A stretch of 64,000 nt of DNA from positions 1 to 64,000 of the IMG/VR virus record IMGVR_UViG_3300036771_000090; one strand, given 5' to 3'. The notes under the pieces are model-generated. The model did no database searches and was not told the origin of the DNA. It saw nothing but the letters and a program-made list of their open reading frames with translations. Of the stretch, positions 1-64,000 are shown piece by piece. The first letter of the stretch is position 1. Each line of letters begins with the position of its first letter. This DNA is from a virus. Made by a program: the position numbers and the translations under genes.

Positions 1-1547
1 TCCTTCGCACCGGCGGCCATCTTGGCGTCTTCCACCACGCCGTTCAGGAAGTCGCGCCGGGTCTTGGCCAGCTCGAAGGGCGCCAGCCCCTCCTGGGCTC
101 CTTCTTCCAGCACGGTGCGGACCTTGCGGCCCAGCTCCGGTTTGTGCACCAGGCCCAGGATGGCCATCCGCTGCTGCCAGCCGTTCAGGTTGTACTCATC
201 CGACGCCAGCTTGACGAAGGTGGTGACCCGGCTCCAGGTCGTCTTCTTGCCGGTGGAGGGGTTCGGCCCGTGGTAGCGGCCGTTCTTCACCGGGAGCTTG
301 GGCCGGAGCATCAACAGGGGGTCGTACTCGGTCTCCGGCACGTCTCCGGCGGACTCGGCATCCTCCTGTTCGTCCTCATGGCCGCAGCACTCCCGGCCGC
401 GCCAGCCGCCTTCCCCGTCGGCCCGGATTTCGTCGCCTTCGGTGAAGCGCTCATAGCAGTTCGAGCACGTTCCGTCGTACCGGGATTCGAAGTACGGGGG
501 CAGCGCGTCTTCGGGCTCCTCCTGCTCCCCGCGCAGGAACGCGTCCGCTTCGTCCGCACCGGCCACGCCACCGGAACCCAGGAAGGCGTTCGCCTCTTCG
601 TCGGCCACCGCCTTGCGCAGCGCGGCGGCTTCCCGCGGACCCGCGACGGACGCCGGGGGCTCGATGCCGGACGCCTTCTCCCACTCCGCCTCCGCGGCTT
701 CACCGGCCTTGACCGGGGGCGCCGGGACGTGGTGCGGCGCCGGACGGGCGGGACCGCTGACGGGTTCACCCGGGCCCATGGCGCCGGGGCCGCCGGTGGG
801 GATCGGCTTGCGGTTGGGGTTGGGACCGCCGTGCGTGGTCACCAGGCGGGGGACGTACCGCGGGCACGCCGCGTTGTGCACGTCTCCGGCACCCTTCTTC
901 TTCCCCGGGCAGGTGCAATCCCCGTCGGGGTCGTCCGCCCGGACGCCGTGCGACACGGCCCGGTCCAGGATGTCCTGGGCAGCCGCCTCCACGTCGTACG
1001 GGATGTCACCGGTGGCGCGCATCACGGTGGCCGCCTCCCGGTATTCGGTGGCGGTGGGCCGCAGCTCCTCCGCGCCGCCCGGTGCGGTGGGCTCCTCCGG
1101 CGCGGCGGGGAATCCGCCGGCCATCGTGTCCGGCTCCCCTGCGGACCGGTCCCAAGCGTCCGCCGCGTCACCGGTGGCCGGCCGGCGGCCGGGCTCCTCC
1201 GCGTCCCAGGCGTCCGCCGGGGCCGGGCGGTCCCATTCGTCACCGGCTGGCACGCCCGGTCCGGAGGCGTCGCTTTCCCCCAGGTCCGCGTCCGCCATGG
1301 GGTTGCCGCCGGCGGCAACCTCCTCCGGGGGGTCCCAGTGCGCCATGGTCTCCCGCGCGTCCGGGTCCCCGGCCAGCGCCTGGGTGCGGACGGTCTCCTT
1401 GGGGAAGTCGCTCCCGCCACCGCACGCCGGGTTGTCCGCGGAGGCGCGCTTGCCGTTGGCCGCGTGACTGCGCACACGGCCGTTGGCGGTCAGGGACAGG
1501 TCGTTGCGGGGGCACATCTGGCAGGAGTACCGCTTCGGTTCGGTCAT
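1..1547 (-). CDS. Large zinc-ribbon-containing phage protein, 3' end beyond window
   Basis: An open frame of 515 codons reads leftward from ATG at 1547 and runs off the window at position 1 without a stop, so the C-terminus is missing. A purine-rich ribosome site (GGAAGAAGGAAG) precedes the ATG. The N-terminus has a Cys pair (CQMC) followed by a histidine and a later cysteine. The middle (about residues 50-330) is acidic, Pro/Ala-rich and probably disordered. A second Cys cluster (CSNCYERF, then CC) lies near residue 390. The last visible part contains WSRVTTF and NGWQQRM, which I associate with large actinophage proteins encoded near recombination genes, but I cannot name a function. It is downstream of the helicase operon. 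Confidence 0.7.
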   Translation of the reverse strand, partial: MTEPKRYSCQMCPRNDLSLTANGRVRSHAANGKRASADNPACGGGSDFPKETVRTQALAGDPDARETMAHWDPPEEVAAGGNPMADADLGESDASGPGVPAGDEWDRPAPADAWDAEEPGRRPATGDAADAWDRSAGEPDTMAGGFPAAPEEPTAPGGAEELRPTATEYREAATVMRATGDIPYDVEAAAQDILDRAVSHGVRADDPDGDCTCPGKKKGAGDVHNAACPRYVPRLVTTHGGPNPNRKPIPTGGPGAMGPGEPVSGPARPAPHHVPAPPVKAGEAAEAEWEKASGIEPPASVAGPREAAALRKAVADEEANAFLGSGGVAGADEADAFLRGEQEEPEDALPPYFESRYDGTCSNCYERFTEGDEIRADGEGGWRGRECCGHEDEQEDAESAGDVPETEYDPLLMLRPKLPVKNGRYHGPNPSTGKKTTWSRVTTFVKLASDEYNLNGWQQRMAILGLVHKPELGRKVRTVLEEGAQEGLAPFELAKTRRDFLNGVVEDAKMAAGAK

Positions 1548-6268: not shown

Positions 6269-6297
6269 AGACTATGGAAGGTGACAACAGGTGTCAA
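6269..6297 (-). promoter_or_regulatory. Leftward sigma70-type promoter
   Basis: On the minus strand there is TTGACA (6292-6297), exactly 17 bases, then TAGTCT (6269-6274), giving a near-consensus housekeeping promoter 30 bases ahead of the ATG at 6238. It should drive the 6238-to-1 operon. The -35 hexamer lies inside the second phased repeat, so a protein binding the repeats would be placed to control it. Confidence 0.7.
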
Positions 6298-6316
6298 CCG
6301 GTGACAGGAGGTGCTA
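6280..6316. repeat. Four 7-bp direct repeats phased at exactly 10 bp
   Basis: GGTGACA (6280), GGTGTCA (6290), GGTGACA (6300) and GGTGCTA (6310) recur every 10 bases, one helical turn, within the divergent intergenic region. They overlap the leftward -35 and the rightward -10. This is the layout of a cooperative operator or an iteron array. The HTH protein encoded at 6327 is the obvious candidate ligand. Confidence 0.7.
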
Positions 6317-6539: not shown

Positions 6540-7031
6540 ATGGCTGAACAGCCGATCAAAGCGATCCAGACCCGGTATGCGGGGTGCCACTTCCGCAGCC
6601 GCCTGGAGGCGCGCTGGGCCGTGTTCTGGGACTCCCTGGACTGGCCCTGGGAGTACGAGCCGCAGGGGTTCGACCTGCCGCACGGACCCTACCTCCCGGA
6701 CTTCTCGGTGACCCCCTACCCGGAGCGGTCCCAGGGGCCGGTCTGGTTCGAAGTCAAGCCGCCCGGCGCGTCCGACGACATGCGCTGGCCGGAGCTGGCG
6801 GTGATGACCGGAATCATGATCATCACAGCGAAGGGGATGCACCGGCGCGGGGACAACTGCTCCGTGGAGCACACCGCGGAGGTCTTCACGCCCGAAGGCC
6901 ACCGGGCTGGCGTGGACCTGTGGGCGCACGTCGGGGGACAGCACTGGGACGCGGCCAGCTCCGCGCGGTTCGAGCACGGGGAGCGGCCGGCACAGCACCG
7001 CACGCGCCGCCGGGGCCGGGGGAAGCGGTGA
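6540..7031 (+). CDS. PD-(D/E)XK superfamily nuclease
   Basis: A 163-residue protein with a restriction-endonuclease-like core: FRSRLEARWAVFWD (first acidic residue), WEYEPQGF, then YLPDFSV and VWFEVKPP, providing the PD...ExK triad. Actinophages often encode such short nucleases beside replication genes, where they act as recombination or Holliday-junction-type nucleases; the exact substrate here is inferred. GGAAGAAGGAAG precedes the ATG at 6540. The C-terminus is very basic (RTRRRGRGKR), consistent with DNA binding. Its stop overlaps the region just ahead of the primase-polymerase. Confidence 0.85.
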   Translation: MAEQPIKAIQTRYAGCHFRSRLEARWAVFWDSLDWPWEYEPQGFDLPHGPYLPDFSVTPYPERSQGPVWFEVKPPGASDDMRWPELAVMTGIMIITAKGMHRRGDNCSVEHTAEVFTPEGHRAGVDLWAHVGGQHWDAASSARFEHGERPAQHRTRRRGRGKR

Positions 7032-7033
7032 CG

Positions 7034-10000
7034 ATGACCGGAGAGCAGACCGGCGCCGCTCCGATGGGGGCGGCGGACCTGTCCCAGGGGCACGCCGAAG
7101 AGCTGGAGTCGAGCTGCATCGACGCGGAGCACGTGGCCGCCCGCGGGTACCGGACACTGTTCGGCACCGACGCGGACCGGCTGGAGCTGAAGAACCTGCG
7201 CATCCCGCGCTTCATGTGGCGGGACGACAGCGCCTTTCCCGGGCTGCTGATCCCGGAGTACCGGGTCACCGGGGAGCTGATCGGCTACCAGTTCAAGCCC
7301 GCGGTGCCGCAACGGGGGTCGGACAAGAAGTTCGTGAAGTACGCCTCCCAGGCCGGCACCCCGAACCACCTGGACGTCCCGCCGCTGGTGGCGGACAAGG
7401 TCCGGGACCCGGACAGCCCGCTGTGGATCACCGAAGGGATCAAGAAGGCCGACTCCCTGGCGTCCCGGAGCCGCGCGGTGGTGACGCTGACCGGCGTCTT
7501 CAACTGGCGGAGCAAGCTGGGCACGCTGGGGGACTGGGAGGACATCCCGCTCCAGGGCCGCTCCGTGGTGATCTGCTTCGATGCGGACGCCCGGGAGAAG
7601 CGCACGGTCCTTCTGGCCATGCGCCGGCTGGGCACCTGGCTGGAGTCCAAGCGCGCCAGGGACATCCGGTACCTGATCGTCCCGTCAGAGGTGAACGGCA
7701 CGCCGGTCAAGGGCGTGGACGACTACTTCTGTGCCGGCGGCACGCTGGCGGACCTGCGGGACCACGCGCTCCGGGAGCTGCCGTCCGACGGGGCCCAGGA
7801 CGCGGCCTTCTCGGACGCGGTGCTGGCCGACACGGTGTGCAGTGAGGAGCTGGAGGGGCAGTTCAAATGGTCGGCCGGCATGGGCTGGATGACCTGGACG
7901 GGGAAATTCTGGCGCAAGGCGACGGACGCCACGGTGACCGAAGCCGTACGGCTGTGGGCCCTGACCCAGTTCGAACGGACCATCGACAAGCAGAAGGCCG
8001 ACCCGAACCGGGACATGCGCTCCCAGATGGAGGGGTGGCGGAGCGCGCTGTCCAAAGGGAAGCTGACCGCGCTGGTGACCCTGTCGCGCGGCATCCTGGA
8101 GTGCTCCCCGGACGATTTCGATTCGGACCCCGACCTGTTCAACTGCCCCAACGGCATCCTGGACCTGCGCACCGGCGTACTGGTGCCGCACGACCCGGAC
8201 CGCCTGATGACCCGGATAGCCGGCGTGGACTACATCAAGGGTGCGGAGCACCCCGACTGGTTCACGGCGCTCCAGGCGCTGCCGGAATCGGTCCGGGAGT
8301 GGTTTCAGCTCCGCATCGGCCAGGCCATCACCGGTCACCTGACCCCCGACGATCTGGCCGTCATCTGCCAGGGGGGCGGGGAGAACGGGAAGTCCACGGT
8401 CTTCAACGCGCTGATCACCGCGGCGGGCCGGTATCACATCATGGTGGCGGACCGGGCGATGCTCGGGAACGCCTCCGACAACCACCCCACGGAGATGATG
8501 GACTTCATGGGGGCCCGGTTCGCCATGCTGGAGGAGACCCCCGAATCCCGGCGCCTGGACACCAACCGGCTGAAGAAGCTGGTGGGCACCCGGGAGATCA
8601 CCGCACGCGGGATGCGCCAGGACGACGTCACGTTCGAGACGACCCACTCCCTGTTCGTCAACACCAATTTCCGCCCGACCGTGGATGAGACCGACCACGG
8701 GACCTGGCGCCGTCTGGCGCTGCTGAAGTTCCCGTACACGTACCGCAAGTCCCAGTCGCTGGTGAAGGGCCCCAACGACCGTCTGGGGGACCCTTCGCTC
8801 CGCCAGCGGGTGGAGACTCCGCCGGTGATGGAGGCGGCGCTGGCCTGGGCCGTGGAAGGCGCGCAGCGCTGGTACGGCATGGACCGGATCATGCCGGAGC
8901 TGCCGGAGCTGGTGGTGGCCGACACCCTGGAGTGGCGCAAGGAGTCGGACCCGATCCTCCGGTTCATTGACGACACGCTGGCCTTCGACCGGTCCAGCCA
9001 CATCCACACGGTGGACCTGATGGAGGTCTTCACCAAGTTCATGGACGACCGCAAGTCCCGGCAGTGGTCGGAGAAGACCTTCGGGAGCCGGTTCGGCGGT
9101 CACGATCTGTGTGCACAGAACGGCGTGGAGAAGAGGAAGATCAGGAAGACCGAAGGAAGATCAACACTACAGACCGGAGTCGTGGCGGGAGCCACGTACA
9201 ACGCCTGGATGGGGGTCAGATTTCAGGGTCCGGAGGACGGAAAAGTGTCCGATCCGGGTCCGGAAGACAATTCTGGACCGGAAGATCCTTTCGGAGAACC
9301 GCAGGTAAATGGGGGTGAGCAAGATCATGTTCCCGGTGTTCCCGGTACGGCGGTTAACGCTCAAATGCCCTACGCATGGGAGCTTAACCCGGGAACCGGG
9401 AACACCGGGAACAGACACGAACAGGTAACGAATGTGAAGGAGATGTGCGTGTCTGATATGCCCGAATCCGACCACGCTCCGCAGGTGACTTTCTTCGACC
9501 TGGAAGGCGCCAGCGCGGACGAATTGTTCACGTACGGTGACGGTTTCGTGAGGTTGCCCGGCATGGCCACCGGTGACGGGGACGTGCGCACCGGCGTGCC
9601 GGTCCGGGAGCTGGTCCGGGCCCTGGAGAACGGTCCGTCCGCCGGGCACAACATCATGGGCTTCGACGGCCTGGCCCTGGCCTTCCACCACGGGATGGAC
9701 TGGGAGAAGTTCTGCGAAGGCGCGCAGGACACGGAGATCAACGCCCGGCTGGCCGATCCCCCGCGCTCCAAGGAGTCCGGGCGGACGGAGGACCGGTACG
9801 ACCTGGACCACACCGCGGCGAAGCTGGGGGTGGCCGGGAAGACCGACTCCGCCAAGCGGCTGAAGGACAAGTACGGCGGCTACGACAAGATCCCGCTGGA
9901 CGACCCGGAGTACCACGCCTACCTGAAGGGCGACGTGGAGGCCACCCGCCAGGTGGCCGCGCTCCTGCCGACCACGGAGTACGGCAAGCGGGAGCACTAC

Positions 10001-11203
10001 CTGGCGTCGCTGGCCGGCCGGATGACCCTGAACGGCTTCCGGGTGGACGTCCCCCTGCTCCGCCGGCGCCTGGTGGAGGGACAGGCCAAAAAGCGCGCCG
10101 CCATGGAGGAACTGCGGGAGAGCACCGGGCTTCCGCTGGGCCGGGAGGTGATGCGGGGCCGCGGGAAGGCGAAGACGCCCGTCTTCGAGCCGTTCGACTC
10201 CCCGTTCAACACCACGGAGGGCAAGCAGTGGCTGGCGGACCTGTGGAGCCAGTACGGCGTGAAGCGGCCCCCCAGGACGGCCAAGGGAGCGCTGTCCACG
10301 GCCGCGGAGGCGCTGAAGGAGGTCTCCGGCCACCCGCGGTGCCCGGAGGAGCTGCGACGGACCCTGGACCTGATGGGGATCATCACCACCACCCGGACCG
10401 TCTACCAGACCGCTGCCACCTACCTCACCCCGGAGGGACGCGTCCACCCGTCGGTGTCCATGCGCCAGGCGTCCGGGCGGTGGTCGGTCACCAACCCCGG
10501 TCTGACCGTCTTCGGCAAGCGCGGCGGCCGGCACGTGGAGCGGGACATCTTCATCCCGGAGCCGGGCCACGTGGTCATCACGTGCGACCTGAGCCAGGTG
10601 GACATGCGCGCGGTGGCCGGGCACTGCCAGGACCAGGCGTACATGGCGCTGTTCGAGCCGGGCAAGGACGTCCACCAGGCGATTGCCGATCAACTGGGCA
10701 TCGCCCGGCAGGACGCGAAGCAGTTCGGCCACGGGTACAACTACGGCCTTCAGCTCAAAGGCGCCATCGAGCGCGGCATGGACCCGGACCTGGCCAAGAC
10801 GTTCTATGAGGGCATGGCCACCCAGTTCCCGGAGAAGAACGCCTGGACGGAGCGGGTACGGGCCGACGGCCGCCAGGGGCTGCTCCTGGACAACGGCTTC
10901 GGCCGGATGATGCGCTGCGACCCGGACCACGCCTTCACGGTCGCACCGGCCCTGATGGGCCAGGGAGGTGCCCGGGACATCACCTGTGAGGTGCTGATCC
11001 GCCTCATGGCCCGGCATCCTGAGTACCGGGCCTACCTGCGCGCCTACGTCCACGACGAATTCGTCTTCTCGGTCCCGGAGGACCAGGCGGAGGAGATCGG
11101 CGCGGAGATCACCGACGCGTTCACCTGGGAGTGGCGCGGGGTCCCGATCCTGTGCGACCTGGCCGGGCCCGCGGAGAGCTGGGGATCGGCGTCCGCGAAG
11201 TAG
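7034..11203 (+). CDS. Primase/SF3 helicase fused to family A DNA polymerase
   Basis: One uninterrupted frame encodes 1389 residues. Residues about 100-250 carry a DUF3854/Toprim-like fold (WITEGIKKADS, then CFDADA). Residues about 320-720 form a D5/P4-type helicase with Walker A GGGENGKST near 449, Walker B-like AMLEET and sensor FVNTNFRP. After a 100-residue acidic, Gly/Pro-rich linker comes a DnaQ-like exonuclease (FFDLEG near 820, HNIMGFD, YLKGDVEAT) and a family A polymerase with motif A CDLSQVDMR near 1184, motif B around FGHGYNYG and motif C VHDEF near 1338. It should prime, unwind and copy phage DNA. These activities are usually on separate proteins. Motif A has Asp where Glu is nearly universal. 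GTG 7028 is an alternative start. Confidence 0.92.
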   Translation: MTGEQTGAAPMGAADLSQGHAEELESSCIDAEHVAARGYRTLFGTDADRLELKNLRIPRFMWRDDSAFPGLLIPEYRVTGELIGYQFKPAVPQRGSDKKFVKYASQAGTPNHLDVPPLVADKVRDPDSPLWITEGIKKADSLASRSRAVVTLTGVFNWRSKLGTLGDWEDIPLQGRSVVICFDADAREKRTVLLAMRRLGTWLESKRARDIRYLIVPSEVNGTPVKGVDDYFCAGGTLADLRDHALRELPSDGAQDAAFSDAVLADTVCSEELEGQFKWSAGMGWMTWTGKFWRKATDATVTEAVRLWALTQFERTIDKQKADPNRDMRSQMEGWRSALSKGKLTALVTLSRGILECSPDDFDSDPDLFNCPNGILDLRTGVLVPHDPDRLMTRIAGVDYIKGAEHPDWFTALQALPESVREWFQLRIGQAITGHLTPDDLAVICQGGGENGKSTVFNALITAAGRYHIMVADRAMLGNASDNHPTEMMDFMGARFAMLEETPESRRLDTNRLKKLVGTREITARGMRQDDVTFETTHSLFVNTNFRPTVDETDHGTWRRLALLKFPYTYRKSQSLVKGPNDRLGDPSLRQRVETPPVMEAALAWAVEGAQRWYGMDRIMPELPELVVADTLEWRKESDPILRFIDDTLAFDRSSHIHTVDLMEVFTKFMDDRKSRQWSEKTFGSRFGGHDLCAQNGVEKRKIRKTEGRSTLQTGVVAGATYNAWMGVRFQGPEDGKVSDPGPEDNSGPEDPFGEPQVNGGEQDHVPGVPGTAVNAQMPYAWELNPGTGNTGNRHEQVTNVKEMCVSDMPESDHAPQVTFFDLEGASADELFTYGDGFVRLPGMATGDGDVRTGVPVRELVRALENGPSAGHNIMGFDGLALAFHHGMDWEKFCEGAQDTEINARLADPPRSKESGRTEDRYDLDHTAAKLGVAGKTDSAKRLKDKYGGYDKIPLDDPEYHAYLKGDVEATRQVAALLPTTEYGKREHYLASLAGRMTLNGFRVDVPLLRRRLVEGQAKKRAAMEELRESTGLPLGREVMRGRGKAKTPVFEPFDSPFNTTEGKQWLADLWSQYGVKRPPRTAKGALSTAAEALKEVSGHPRCPEELRRTLDLMGIITTTRTVYQTAATYLTPEGRVHPSVSMRQASGRWSVTNPGLTVFGKRGGRHVERDIFIPEPGHVVITCDLSQVDMRAVAGHCQDQAYMALFEPGKDVHQAIADQLGIARQDAKQFGHGYNYGLQLKGAIERGMDPDLAKTFYEGMATQFPEKNAWTERVRADGRQGLLLDNGFGRMMRCDPDHAFTVAPALMGQGGARDITCEVLIRLMARHPEYRAYLRAYVHDEFVFSVPEDQAEEIGAEITDAFTWEWRGVPILCDLAGPAESWGSASAK
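9328..9413. repeat. 19-bp perfect inverted repeat in the primase-polymerase linker
   Basis: TGTTCCCGGTGTTCCCGGT (9328-9346) and its exact complement (9395-9413) flank 48 bases. The flanked stretch itself holds a second, one-base-imperfect pair (GGTTAACGCTC at 9352 and GAGCTTAACC at 9380). Together they could form a long hairpin or cruciform, 24 bases before the internal ribosome site at 9437. Confidence 0.85.
9437..9451 (+). promoter_or_regulatory. Internal ribosome site and GTG start for a free polymerase
   Basis: AAGGAG (9437-9442) is followed after six bases by GTG (9449), in frame with the fusion at codon 806, just before the exonuclease domain. Initiation here would give a 584-residue polymerase ending at 11203, the normal size of a phage family A enzyme. 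The signal is as good as those of authentic starts in this window. Confidence 0.55.
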
Positions 11204-53806: not shown

Positions 53807-53845
53807 CGGTTCCTCTTCCTGGATTCCTGTTCTGCTGCTGGTTCT

Positions 53846-62206: not shown

Positions 62207-62239
62207 GTCATGTCATAGATTCTTTCCGGGACACGGCGA

Positions 62240-62267
62240 AGCCCCGGGGGACCGGGCCCCCGGGGCT
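62240..62267 (-). terminator. 11-bp perfect hairpin terminator
   Basis: AGCCCCGGGGG and its complement around six bases, 15 bases after the stop at 62282. It ends the membrane-protein operon. Confidence 0.8.
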
Positions 62268-62281
62268 GCCTGTACCACGTC

Positions 62282-62695
62282 TCACCTGCGGCGCTTCCCC
62301 TTGCCCTTCGGCTCCTCCAGGGTCTCCCGGAGTGACTTGATCGCGGCAGCGCTTCCGATCATCAGCACGGCCACCGCTCCGACGGCCGCAGCCGCCGCGA
62401 TGACCAGCGCCACCACGGAACCCAGGACAGCGATCAGGACCGGCGCCAGGATGACCGCGATCACGGCCAGACCGCCGGTGATGACCAGTCCGCCGAGAAG
62501 GACGAAGAAGTACGGGACGTACCGGTCCAGGACGTTCTGACCGGGATTCTGGTTCACCGGCGCCGTGTCGATCACCGGCGCCGCGTAGTGGTGGTGGATG
62601 TGGATGACCTGGTCTCCTCCGGGGATCTGGCCCGTCTCCCCTGCCGAAGGCAGGTAGGTGGTCCGGTGGACCACCGCCTTGCGCTGCTCTTCCAT
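62282..62695 (-). CDS. Membrane protein, possibly Spd-like
   Basis: A 137-residue protein from ATG 62695 with GAGGAAGC upstream. A soluble N-terminal 55 residues includes VIHIHHHYAAPVID, then two to three hydrophobic segments (YFFVLLGGLVITGGLAVIAVILAPVLIAVLGSVVALVIAA in parts) and a basic Lys/Arg tail. Size, topology and place next to the putative translocase recall the small hydrophobic Spd proteins of Streptomyces conjugative plasmids, but sequence identity was not checked. Confidence 0.72.
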   Translation of the reverse strand: MEEQRKAVVHRTTYLPSAGETGQIPGGDQVIHIHHHYAAPVIDTAPVNQNPGQNVLDRYVPYFFVLLGGLVITGGLAVIAVILAPVLIAVLGSVVALVIAAAAAVGAVAVLMIGSAAAIKSLRETLEEPKGKGKRRR

Positions 62696-62701
62696 GCTTC
62701 C

Positions 62702-62803
62702 TCACATCCAGTGCGACACGGCCCAGACCGCTGCCAGGAACAGCAGAACGATCACGGCCAGGGTGCGGTTGGCACGCCACCGGGCCGACCGCCTGTGACT
62801 CAC
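62702..62803 (-). CDS. 33-residue single-span membrane protein
   Basis: A short ORF from GTG 62803 (GTGA overlap with the upstream stop). A basic N-terminus (SHRRSARWRANR) is followed by one span (TLAVIVLLFLAAVWAVS). Its stop lies seven bases before the next ATG. The 'basic then hydrophobic' layout in a tight operon supports translation. Confidence 0.6.
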   Translation of the reverse strand: MSHRRSARWRANRTLAVIVLLFLAAVWAVSHWM

Positions 62804-63003
62804 GGGCGGGCCCGGCGCCGGACCACGGCGTACAGCGGCGCGGTGATGATGGCGTCCGCCACGACGATGAACACGATGGCCAGGAAGGTGGCCGCCACCG
62901 GACTGTTGACCTTGTCGCCCGGCAGCAGCGAAGCCACCATGGCGATCAGCAGCAGCACGGCCGCCGCGTGGACGAAGTAGATTATTTCCTTGATCGCTCG
63001 CAT
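62800..63003 (-). CDS. Two-span membrane protein
   Basis: A 67-residue protein from ATG 63003 with GAAGGAAG upstream. Two hydrophobic segments (IYFVHAAAVLLLIAMVASLL and ATFLAIVFIVVADAIITAPL) flank a short loop, with a basic tail RRRARP. First gene after the repeat array at 63077-63173. A membrane partner of the translocase is plausible. Confidence 0.68.
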   Translation of the reverse strand: MRAIKEIIYFVHAAAVLLLIAMVASLLPGDKVNSPVAATFLAIVFIVVADAIITAPLYAVVRRRARP

Positions 63004-63076
63004 GATCGTTTTCTTCCTTCTCGGGTGTCTGACGCGGGTTGTGACGGATCGGGAGAGTGTCTTAGGTCGGAGCCGG

Positions 63077-63173
63077 TGTCAGCGGTCTGACAGGCGTTTC
63101 TGACAGCCTTCTGACAAGGGCTGACACCGGCTCTGACATGCGGTTCTGACAGGTACTGACACCGGCTCTGACA
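63077..63173. repeat. Array of eight TCTGACAG-like repeats
   Basis: CTGACA occurs at 63087, 63100, 63111, 63121, 63133, 63146, 63156 and 63168 on the + strand, spaced 10-13 bases, mostly inside the 8-base word TCTGACAG, with one inverted copy at 63077. CTGACACCGGCTCTGACA occurs twice. The array fills the gap between the translocase stop and the membrane-protein operon. It has the form of an iteron or of a clt/TRS locus. Confidence 0.85.
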
Positions 63174-63179
63174 GGGTCT

Positions 63180-64000
63180 TCAGTTGGCCCGGTGGCCGTT
63201 TCTGATACGGGGGCGGACGACGTACGGGGGCTTGCCGTTGCTGGTCTCCAGGCGGCCGGCTTCGGTGAGGCGCTTCAGCTCCGCGTACACCCACTGCCGG
63301 GTCCGGCCGGTGATGCCCGGAAGCTCCGACAGTGCTTCGAAGGTGATTTCCGCGGCGCCGCCTGCCTCCAGTTCATCGATCTTGGCTTCCAGGGCCGCGC
63401 GTGCGTCCGCGGTGGACATCCGGCCGCCCGCGGGCTCCGGACGGAGGCTGAAGGACCCGGCAAATCCGGGGTCCGGGATGGGTTCGGTCACGTCGATCAG
63501 GGCTCCGTCTTCGTCGGGGACCGCGGTCAGGTCCAGCGCCTGCTCCCGGTCGTTGTCGGTTTCGCCGTACCAGTTCACCGGGTCTTCGTCCGGTGCCGGG
63601 ACGTCCAGGGGGACCGGGGGCAGACCGGCGGTCAGCTTCGAGTCCGGCACCTGGATGCCGGCCCCCAGGCACATGGCCGTTCCGGGGTCCAGAACGGCCC
63701 AGAAGGGCCGGCTGGCGTCCAGTTCGGCACGCTTCTGGGTCCTGGTCAGCCGCAGTGCACGGCCTTCCACCGCCCACAGCGTCCGGTCGGTCCCGATCGA
63801 CTCCGCGTAGTGCTTGCCGGGGAAGTCGGCACCCCACTTGGTGGGGTCTGCTCCGGCTTCCCGGGTGGTCGCGGACAGGGTGAACTTGGCGTCGTAGTCC
63901 TCCCGGCAGCCGAAGGCGAGTGCGTTGGCGAACAGACCGCGGGTCCGGCGGTCGATGTTCTGGTTGTGGGCGGTCTGCATGGACGCGAAGATGGCGAAGC
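63180..64000 (-). CDS. Putative FtsK/TraB-like DNA translocase, C-terminal part
   Basis: The frame is open through the right edge; 272 C-terminal residues are visible and the N-terminus is outside the window. FAIFASMQTAHNQNIDRRTR and GLFANALAFGC, then KHYAESIGTDRTLWAVEGRALRL in parts, resemble the end of the RecA-like motor of FtsK/SpoIIIE/Tra proteins, where motor residues contact rings of neighbours. After an acidic Pro-rich linker, the last 75 residues form a winged helix (ALSELPGITGRTRQWVYAEL, TEAGRLETSNG), as in the DNA-reading domain of FtsK gamma or TraB. The Walker motifs are not visible, so the assignment is tentative. Confidence 0.55.
   Translation of the reverse strand, partial: FAIFASMQTAHNQNIDRRTRGLFANALAFGCREDYDAKFTLSATTREAGADPTKWGADFPGKHYAESIGTDRTLWAVEGRALRLTRTQKRAELDASRPFWAVLDPGTAMCLGAGIQVPDSKLTAGLPPVPLDVPAPDEDPVNWYGETDNDREQALDLTAVPDEDGALIDVTEPIPDPGFAGSFSLRPEPAGGRMSTADARAALEAKIDELEAGGAAEITFEALSELPGITGRTRQWVYAELKRLTEAGRLETSNGKPPYVVRPRIRNGHRAN

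Follow-up and report, generated by a model that had tools for sequence, protein, structure and literature searches.

We find that a lineage of tailed phages probably carries a resident module for transfer of double-stranded DNA, of the Streptomyces TraB type, that acts on the phage genome itself; binding and transfer are inferred. With a TraB-type gene set, plasmids of Streptomyces move entire double-stranded DNA molecules between cells. For the phage, the observations are homology, a motor fold, a winged-helix prediction, a repeat array and its position, the gene order, and the same words in conjugative plasmids. A preliminary description of this DNA had suggested that a phage might carry an analog of the plasmid TraB, clt, and Spd components. 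This suggestion is now supported by a full-length match to plasmid TraB, a TraA-like gene, and the array.

The window analyzed (64,000 nt) is part of a virus record of 77,804 bases. An exact direct repeat of 127 bp links the two ends of the record (window 1-127 and genome 77678-77804), and an exonuclease gene spans the end-to-end junction. Because of these two features, we consider the genome to be complete, circular or permuted, and ∼77.7 kb in length. It encodes a terminase, portal, major capsid protein, tape measure, and endolysin, which identify a tailed phage, and a single 1539-aa frame at window positions 6584-11203 fuses a D5-type primase/helicase to a family A DNA polymerase. The phage structural genes and the tra module therefore share one replicon in this complete genome. 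Neither a tyrosine or serine integrase nor a match to ParA or ParB was detected in it. The host, which is not known directly, is very probably a Streptomyces-like filamentous soil bacterium, and within the plasmid collection, it is a Streptomyces plasmid that has the nearest capsid (55.5% identity).

TraB-like gene set and repeat array

The frame that stops at 63180 had been described as the end of an FtsK/Tra-like motor with a winged helix at its C terminus. This prediction was borne out: the frame extends past the window, with its ATG at 65228 and a length of 682 aa, and its terminal part is modeled as a winged helix. The NCBIfam model NF041214 (plasmid_TraB) matches residues 26-673 with E=4.7e-117, and the alignment extends to the C terminus of plasmid_TraB. 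The score of 392 bits does not reach the 800-bit equivalog cut-off. Judged by these sequence comparisons, the phage protein is a divergent homolog of plasmid_TraB and not an equivalog. A tblastn search with the phage protein matches 50 plasmid records.

Both Walker motifs expected upstream are present, as GVPNSGKTEG (Walker A) and GIPFVMIDIEE (Walker B-like). The anticipated RecA-like core was also recovered. When the AlphaFold model of TraB was compared by Foldseek, the best PDB matches were to the motor domains of FtsK (E=1.8e-12) and to TcpA, a coupling protein of conjugation. At the sequence level, the Pfam FtsK_SpoIIIE match is weak (E=0.0026), and a phmmer search of TraB against PDB sequences gave no match. 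The N-terminal part of the model has four long helices at residues 20-133, where transmembrane segments are found in most relatives. With a strict hydropathy cut-off, no transmembrane segment is called in the present TraB, nor in some plasmid TraBs.

Directly upstream of traB (genome 65242-65664) is a TraA-like gene that matches NF041213 with E=4.2e-10. Its score of 39.9 bits does not reach the cut-off of 80. This gene is present in 22 of 28 TraB records versus none of 14 control genomes. Further upstream, at 65822-66883, is a membrane protein whose relative in contig L014 is a DUF2637 protein, a family that Streptomyces plasmids carry as well. A glycosyltransferase-like gene also lies upstream of the module (L006:7909-8574, genome 67909-68574), and its homologs are found near traB in most relatives. 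No GntR-type tra regulator was seen beside the module.

On the other side of the array are the three small membrane-protein genes that had been noted originally (Table 1), of which the 33-aa frame rests on sequence alone. At 10 other phage loci, a homolog of the 67-aa protein follows the array, and the 137-aa protein has homologs at 24 other loci. No Pfam family matched the downstream small membrane proteins. As for the single terminator assigned to these genes, a strong hairpin exists at about 62235-62270; it has no T-run and was not flagged by the terminator scan.

Table 1. Features of the tra module (window numbering unless stated otherwise)
Feature	Position	Strand	Basis or remark
TraB-like gene, C-terminal part in window	63180..64000; full gene genome 63180-65228 (L006:3180-5228)	-	NCBIfam, Foldseek, tblastn
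Predicted winged-helix domain, ~TraB residues 605-675	63180..63400	-	AlphaFold2 model; putative recognition helix GRTRQWVYAELKRL
clt/TRS-like array, 8 direct + 1 inverted TGTCA(G) words	63077..63173	.	Spacing 10-13 bp; directly behind traB
Conserved box CGACCTAAG	63061..63069	-	Fixed 12 bp from start of last array word in several relatives
67-aa small membrane protein, PGDxVN family, 2 predicted TM	62800..63003	-	Spd-like by size and place
33-aa ORF, one TM	62702..62803	-	GTG start overlaps previous stop; sequence only, no independent support
137-aa membrane protein, IHIHHHYAAPV motif, 3 predicted TM	62282..62695	-	Spd-like by place
Stand-alone TraB winged-helix copy	L007:21044-21493 and equivalents in L022-L028		Behind array

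The preliminary description counted eight words in the array. Eight direct TGTCA words are indeed found on the traB coding strand (63173, 63161, 63151, 63138, 63126, 63116, 63105, and 63092) with the spacing given there, but a ninth, inverted word at 63077-63081 brings the total to nine. The 125 bp of the array hold nine of the 18 TGTCAG words and six of the seven TGTCAGA words of the 77.8-kb genome. As for copies elsewhere, a search suggested at the outset, no second such array exists in the complete genome, and CTGACA words lie behind traB on several plasmids. In 400 dinucleotide shuffles of the 230 bp, the copies of a 6-mer averaged 2.4 and never rose to nine. Among random same-size segments of the locus, 1.6% reach that number. 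This control, in which other loci fare worse than 1.6%, gives a less clear-cut test than the shuffles, since hexamers recur of their own accord in coding DNA of 68% GC.

The distance from the conserved box to the array is 12 bp in this phage and in L010, L013, L016, L020, L021, and L029. It is 13 bp in L012 and 11 bp in plasmid pCQ4. The box is possibly a -10 or other regulatory element of the downstream operon. An Rfam search over 60-64 kb gave no match.

The AlphaFold2 model of the last 75 TraB residues has a helix-helix-helix-wing arrangement with pLDDT values of 82-88 across its core. Its best fold matches are winged-helix regulators (E about 0.01), and on this basis we assign a winged helix to the C terminus with moderate confidence. 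FtsK gamma, with which a comparison had been proposed, was not obtained as a specific match in the fold search. In the subclade of plasmid pS1D4-14.2, a separate gene just 3' of the array encodes the TraB winged helix alone, and it matches plasmid_TraB positions 554-631 with E=1.7e-11. A stand-alone winged helix adjoining the array would be expected if this fold reads the array. This protein is possibly a competitor or an autoregulator.

If the winged helix does read the array, variants of the two might be linked. Within one subclade, the putative recognition helix of all four loci with GATCA or CGTGAC words begins with TP rather than xR, whereas their sister L020 has KR and TGTCA words. This pattern is suggestive of recognition-helix residues that track the array words. 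A Mantel comparison of winged-helix and array similarity over all 37 elements gave a partial r of 0.20 (P=0.0045). The P value is 0.047 for phages only; the signal is weak, and it disappears upon thinning (P=0.19).

Related phages and plasmids

An alignment-based scan identified 27 more contigs in IMG/VR that carry such a TraB, in full or in part. Of the 28 TraB records (the present one included), 20 encode the same major capsid family (19 of the 27 others), and 23 encode a terminase. Contigs without a capsid match include several short ones and also the 88-kb L014. A tblastn search of TraB against 50,697 phage records gave no match at E<=1e-3; at this sensitivity, no phage in the collection has this TraB. 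No match to the last 8 kb of sequence was found at the DNA level in the same records, and a peptide-pattern scan of genome contigs with the TraB C terminus yielded no relative.

In a tree of 39 TraB proteins, 25 phage and 14 plasmid proteins are split by one fully supported branch (100/100). The phage proteins were picked by similarity to the query, and this sampling favors such a split. Phage TraBs diverge down to about 37-40% identity, and gene order around traB is kept across the lineage. Enrichment of a 6-mer behind traB reaches a shuffle P<0.05 in 18 of 27 phage loci, with nine missing this threshold, and in all six plasmid loci tested. Eight phage loci, some of them near-duplicates, are at zero of 400 shuffles. 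A simple array of this kind is absent behind traB in L003, L011, L014, and L015; in L011, an HNH-type gene apparently takes its place (by eye).

The words themselves vary. They are TGTCAG in this phage, L010, L013, and L016; TGTCACGG in L012; GATCA-centered in L029, L031, and L032; and TGTCGG/CGTCA in the pS1D4-14.2 group. Arrays of CTGACA or TGACACC lie directly behind traB in an S. canus plasmid, pRL1, pCQ4, an Amycolatopsis plasmid, and pWTY27.

Among the 27 relatives is pS1D4-14.2 (NZ_CP041606, Streptomyces sp. S1D4-14), a plasmid record of 98.8 kb with the same capsid family (55.5% identity) and a TraB that is 41.7% identical. It also has a TraA-like gene, membrane proteins, and an array behind traB. 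It carries portal, capsid, and tape measure genes together with ParA, a ParB-annotated gene, and a tyrosine integrase; by gene content, it is a phage-plasmid. Unlike the present phage, it has ParA, the ParB-annotated gene, the integrase, and the stand-alone winged-helix gene after an array with different words.

The phage module resembles those of the TraB/clt plasmids pWTY27, pSN22, pJV1, pSVH1, and pIJ101 in having an FtsK-like motor, a TraA-like upstream neighbor, short repeats directly 3' of traB, and small membrane proteins behind them. The clt repeats of pWTY27 are TGACACC, whereas the phage words read TCTGACA. In contrast to these plasmids, the module sits on a tailed phage that has a full set of structural genes, its TraB falls below the NCBI equivalog cut-offs, and no GntR-type tra regulator adjoins it. 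With most plasmid TraBs, the phage TraB shares only 25-30% identity, and it belongs to a separate, well-supported clade. It shares the RecA-like motor fold with FtsK/SpoIIIE and with TcpA of pCW3. However, FtsK works on chromosomes at the division septum, unlike the role that we propose for the phage protein.

Streptomyces plasmid-phages that conjugate are already known. According to a secondary account that cites Chen et al. 2012, pFP4 conjugates as an episome and forms particles (PMC4170104), and the transfer genes of pZL12 are cited second-hand in PMC3583192; pZL12, too, is reported to conjugate and to form particles. The view in the preliminary description that such a combination has no known function in phages was therefore too strong. 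Like pZL12, pFP4, and pCQ4, the present phage has phage and tra genes on one replicon. The TraBs of pFP4 and pCQ4 group among plasmid TraBs, whereas the present lineage has its own clade. Moreover, a search of the plasmid records for this capsid matched neither plasmid; pZL12 was outside the comparison. Within the literature searched, a lineage of phages that has a TraB clade of its own and diversified arrays is new, as is a complete genome of this kind without detectable integrase or partition genes.

A query with the pCQ4 terminase matches 38 Streptomyces plasmid records, mostly of 85-95 kb (NZ_CP109240, NZ_CP108852, NZ_CP012383, and others). They make up a large plasmid-phage family, of which the TraB matches listed include only pCQ4 and the W9 plasmid.

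Function of the module

In pWTY27, clt is a cis-acting transfer locus behind the tra gene, where the Tra protein footprints four TGACACC repeats, and the clt-containing region is required for transfer (PMC3583192). We favor a transfer module because of the full-length plasmid_TraB match, the FtsK/TcpA fold, the TraA-like neighbor, and the array. Also counted in its favor are the arrays behind traB on plasmids with the footprinted clt in the same place, the 27 related viral contigs, and the plasmid relative with the same capsid. Counted against it are the missed NCBIfam cut-offs for TraB (392 of 800) and TraA (40 of 80), the weak Mantel result, the nine of 27 loci below the test threshold, the lack of an FtsK gamma match, and the conserved box.

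If this explanation is true, then TraB would be a membrane-anchored, FtsK-like hexamer whose C-terminal winged helix reads the TGTCAG array, the equivalent of clt/TRS, and thereby brings the motor to the phage's own DNA. The motor would pump the circular double-stranded phage genome over a cell boundary, either to a mating partner or through septa within the mycelium. The TraA-like partner and the small Spd-like membrane proteins may assist this pumping. Binding of TraB to the array, movement of DNA between cells, and the timing in the phage cycle are all inferred. Among the three roles offered in the preliminary description, cell-to-cell spread fits best; partition is disfavored, with no ParA or ParB detected.

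The main rival explanation is that the array is an operator, at which a repressor controls the promoter of the small membrane-protein operon while the TraB motor is a separate matter. The repressor could be TraB's own winged helix, the stand-alone winged-helix protein, or an unrelated regulator. In several phages, the box (CCTAAG/CCTAGG) keeps a constant distance of 12 bp from the last word, which is inverted, as in an operator-promoter unit, and the pS1D4-14.2 subclade has its stand-alone winged helix adjoining the array. However, no sigma-70 promoter was found by the promoter scan at the array and box. The genome has a single array rather than a dispersed operator set, a different repeated palindrome precedes about seven other genes of the phage, and the place and words match the proven pWTY27 transfer locus (PMC3583192). 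We therefore consider an operator unlikely as the whole explanation, and operator and transfer roles could coexist. We judge it to be less likely still that TraB serves only the lytic cycle, by moving or clearing DNA at septa or by handling concatemers, without transfer to another cell. The absence of detectable ParA and of either integrase type from the complete genome is compatible with this role, and the FtsK-like protein of Streptomyces phage Geonosis is said to act perhaps in replication (PMC11536984). No TraB-sized gene was found in the annotated right half of the Geonosis record. A terminase is already present for packaging, however, and the whole tra neighborhood (TraA-like gene, array, and Spd-like genes) is plasmid-like, not the motor alone.

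Short direct-repeat arrays can be centromeres, and the FtsK-like protein could then help to segregate an episomal prophage. Some relatives have ParA, and a link between spd genes and the stability of plasmids has been reported (PMC4170104). Yet the complete genome keeps its array without a ParA or ParB match, and the ParA of pS1D4-14.2 sits elsewhere in its record. A partition function is thus very improbable, and we reject it for lack of detectable ParA/ParB in the complete genome. The words are also spaced at about one helical turn, as iterons of a replication origin might be, and pWTY27 has iterons of 7-8 bp elsewhere (PMC3583192). The array nonetheless follows traB in the relatives that have an array, and the primase/polymerase gene is far off, at 6.6-11.2 kb. 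This position leaves almost no room for an origin, which we also reject.

Returning to the transfer module, a more speculative hypothesis, which we hold to be possible but doubtful, is that members of the lineage send naked genomes across septa as well as into neighboring hyphae by using TraB and diversified tags. The phages would thus spread without particles, lysis, or receptors, and divergence of the tags would restrict each pump to the genome of its own phage. Some members may be virulent, as neither an integrase nor ParA or ParB was detected in the complete genome. The spread of phages inside filamentous, multicellular bacteria is poorly understood. Retention of a double-stranded DNA conjugation pump through deep divergence, with diversified tags, suggests that cell-to-cell movement may be a normal part of the life of these phages. 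It would also make the boundary between viruses and conjugative plasmids even less sharp than the few known plasmid-phages of Streptomyces do. The system offers a motor, an address tag, and natural variants of both, and is directly testable.

Other repeated sequences in the window

About seven copies of a leader with a palindrome-like core, which reads TCTATGACATGACTTGACATAGA on the minus strand, occur at window positions 53843, 55116, 55673, 59019, 60298, 61337, and 62155. These leaders contain TTGACA, precede several small genes, some of which are paralogous, and look like a repeated promoter/operator cassette. At window positions 6280-6312, the three words GGTGACAACA, GGTGTCAACC, and GGTGACAGGA are spaced exactly 10 bp apart within a divergent intergenic region that precedes a small HTH-like gene.
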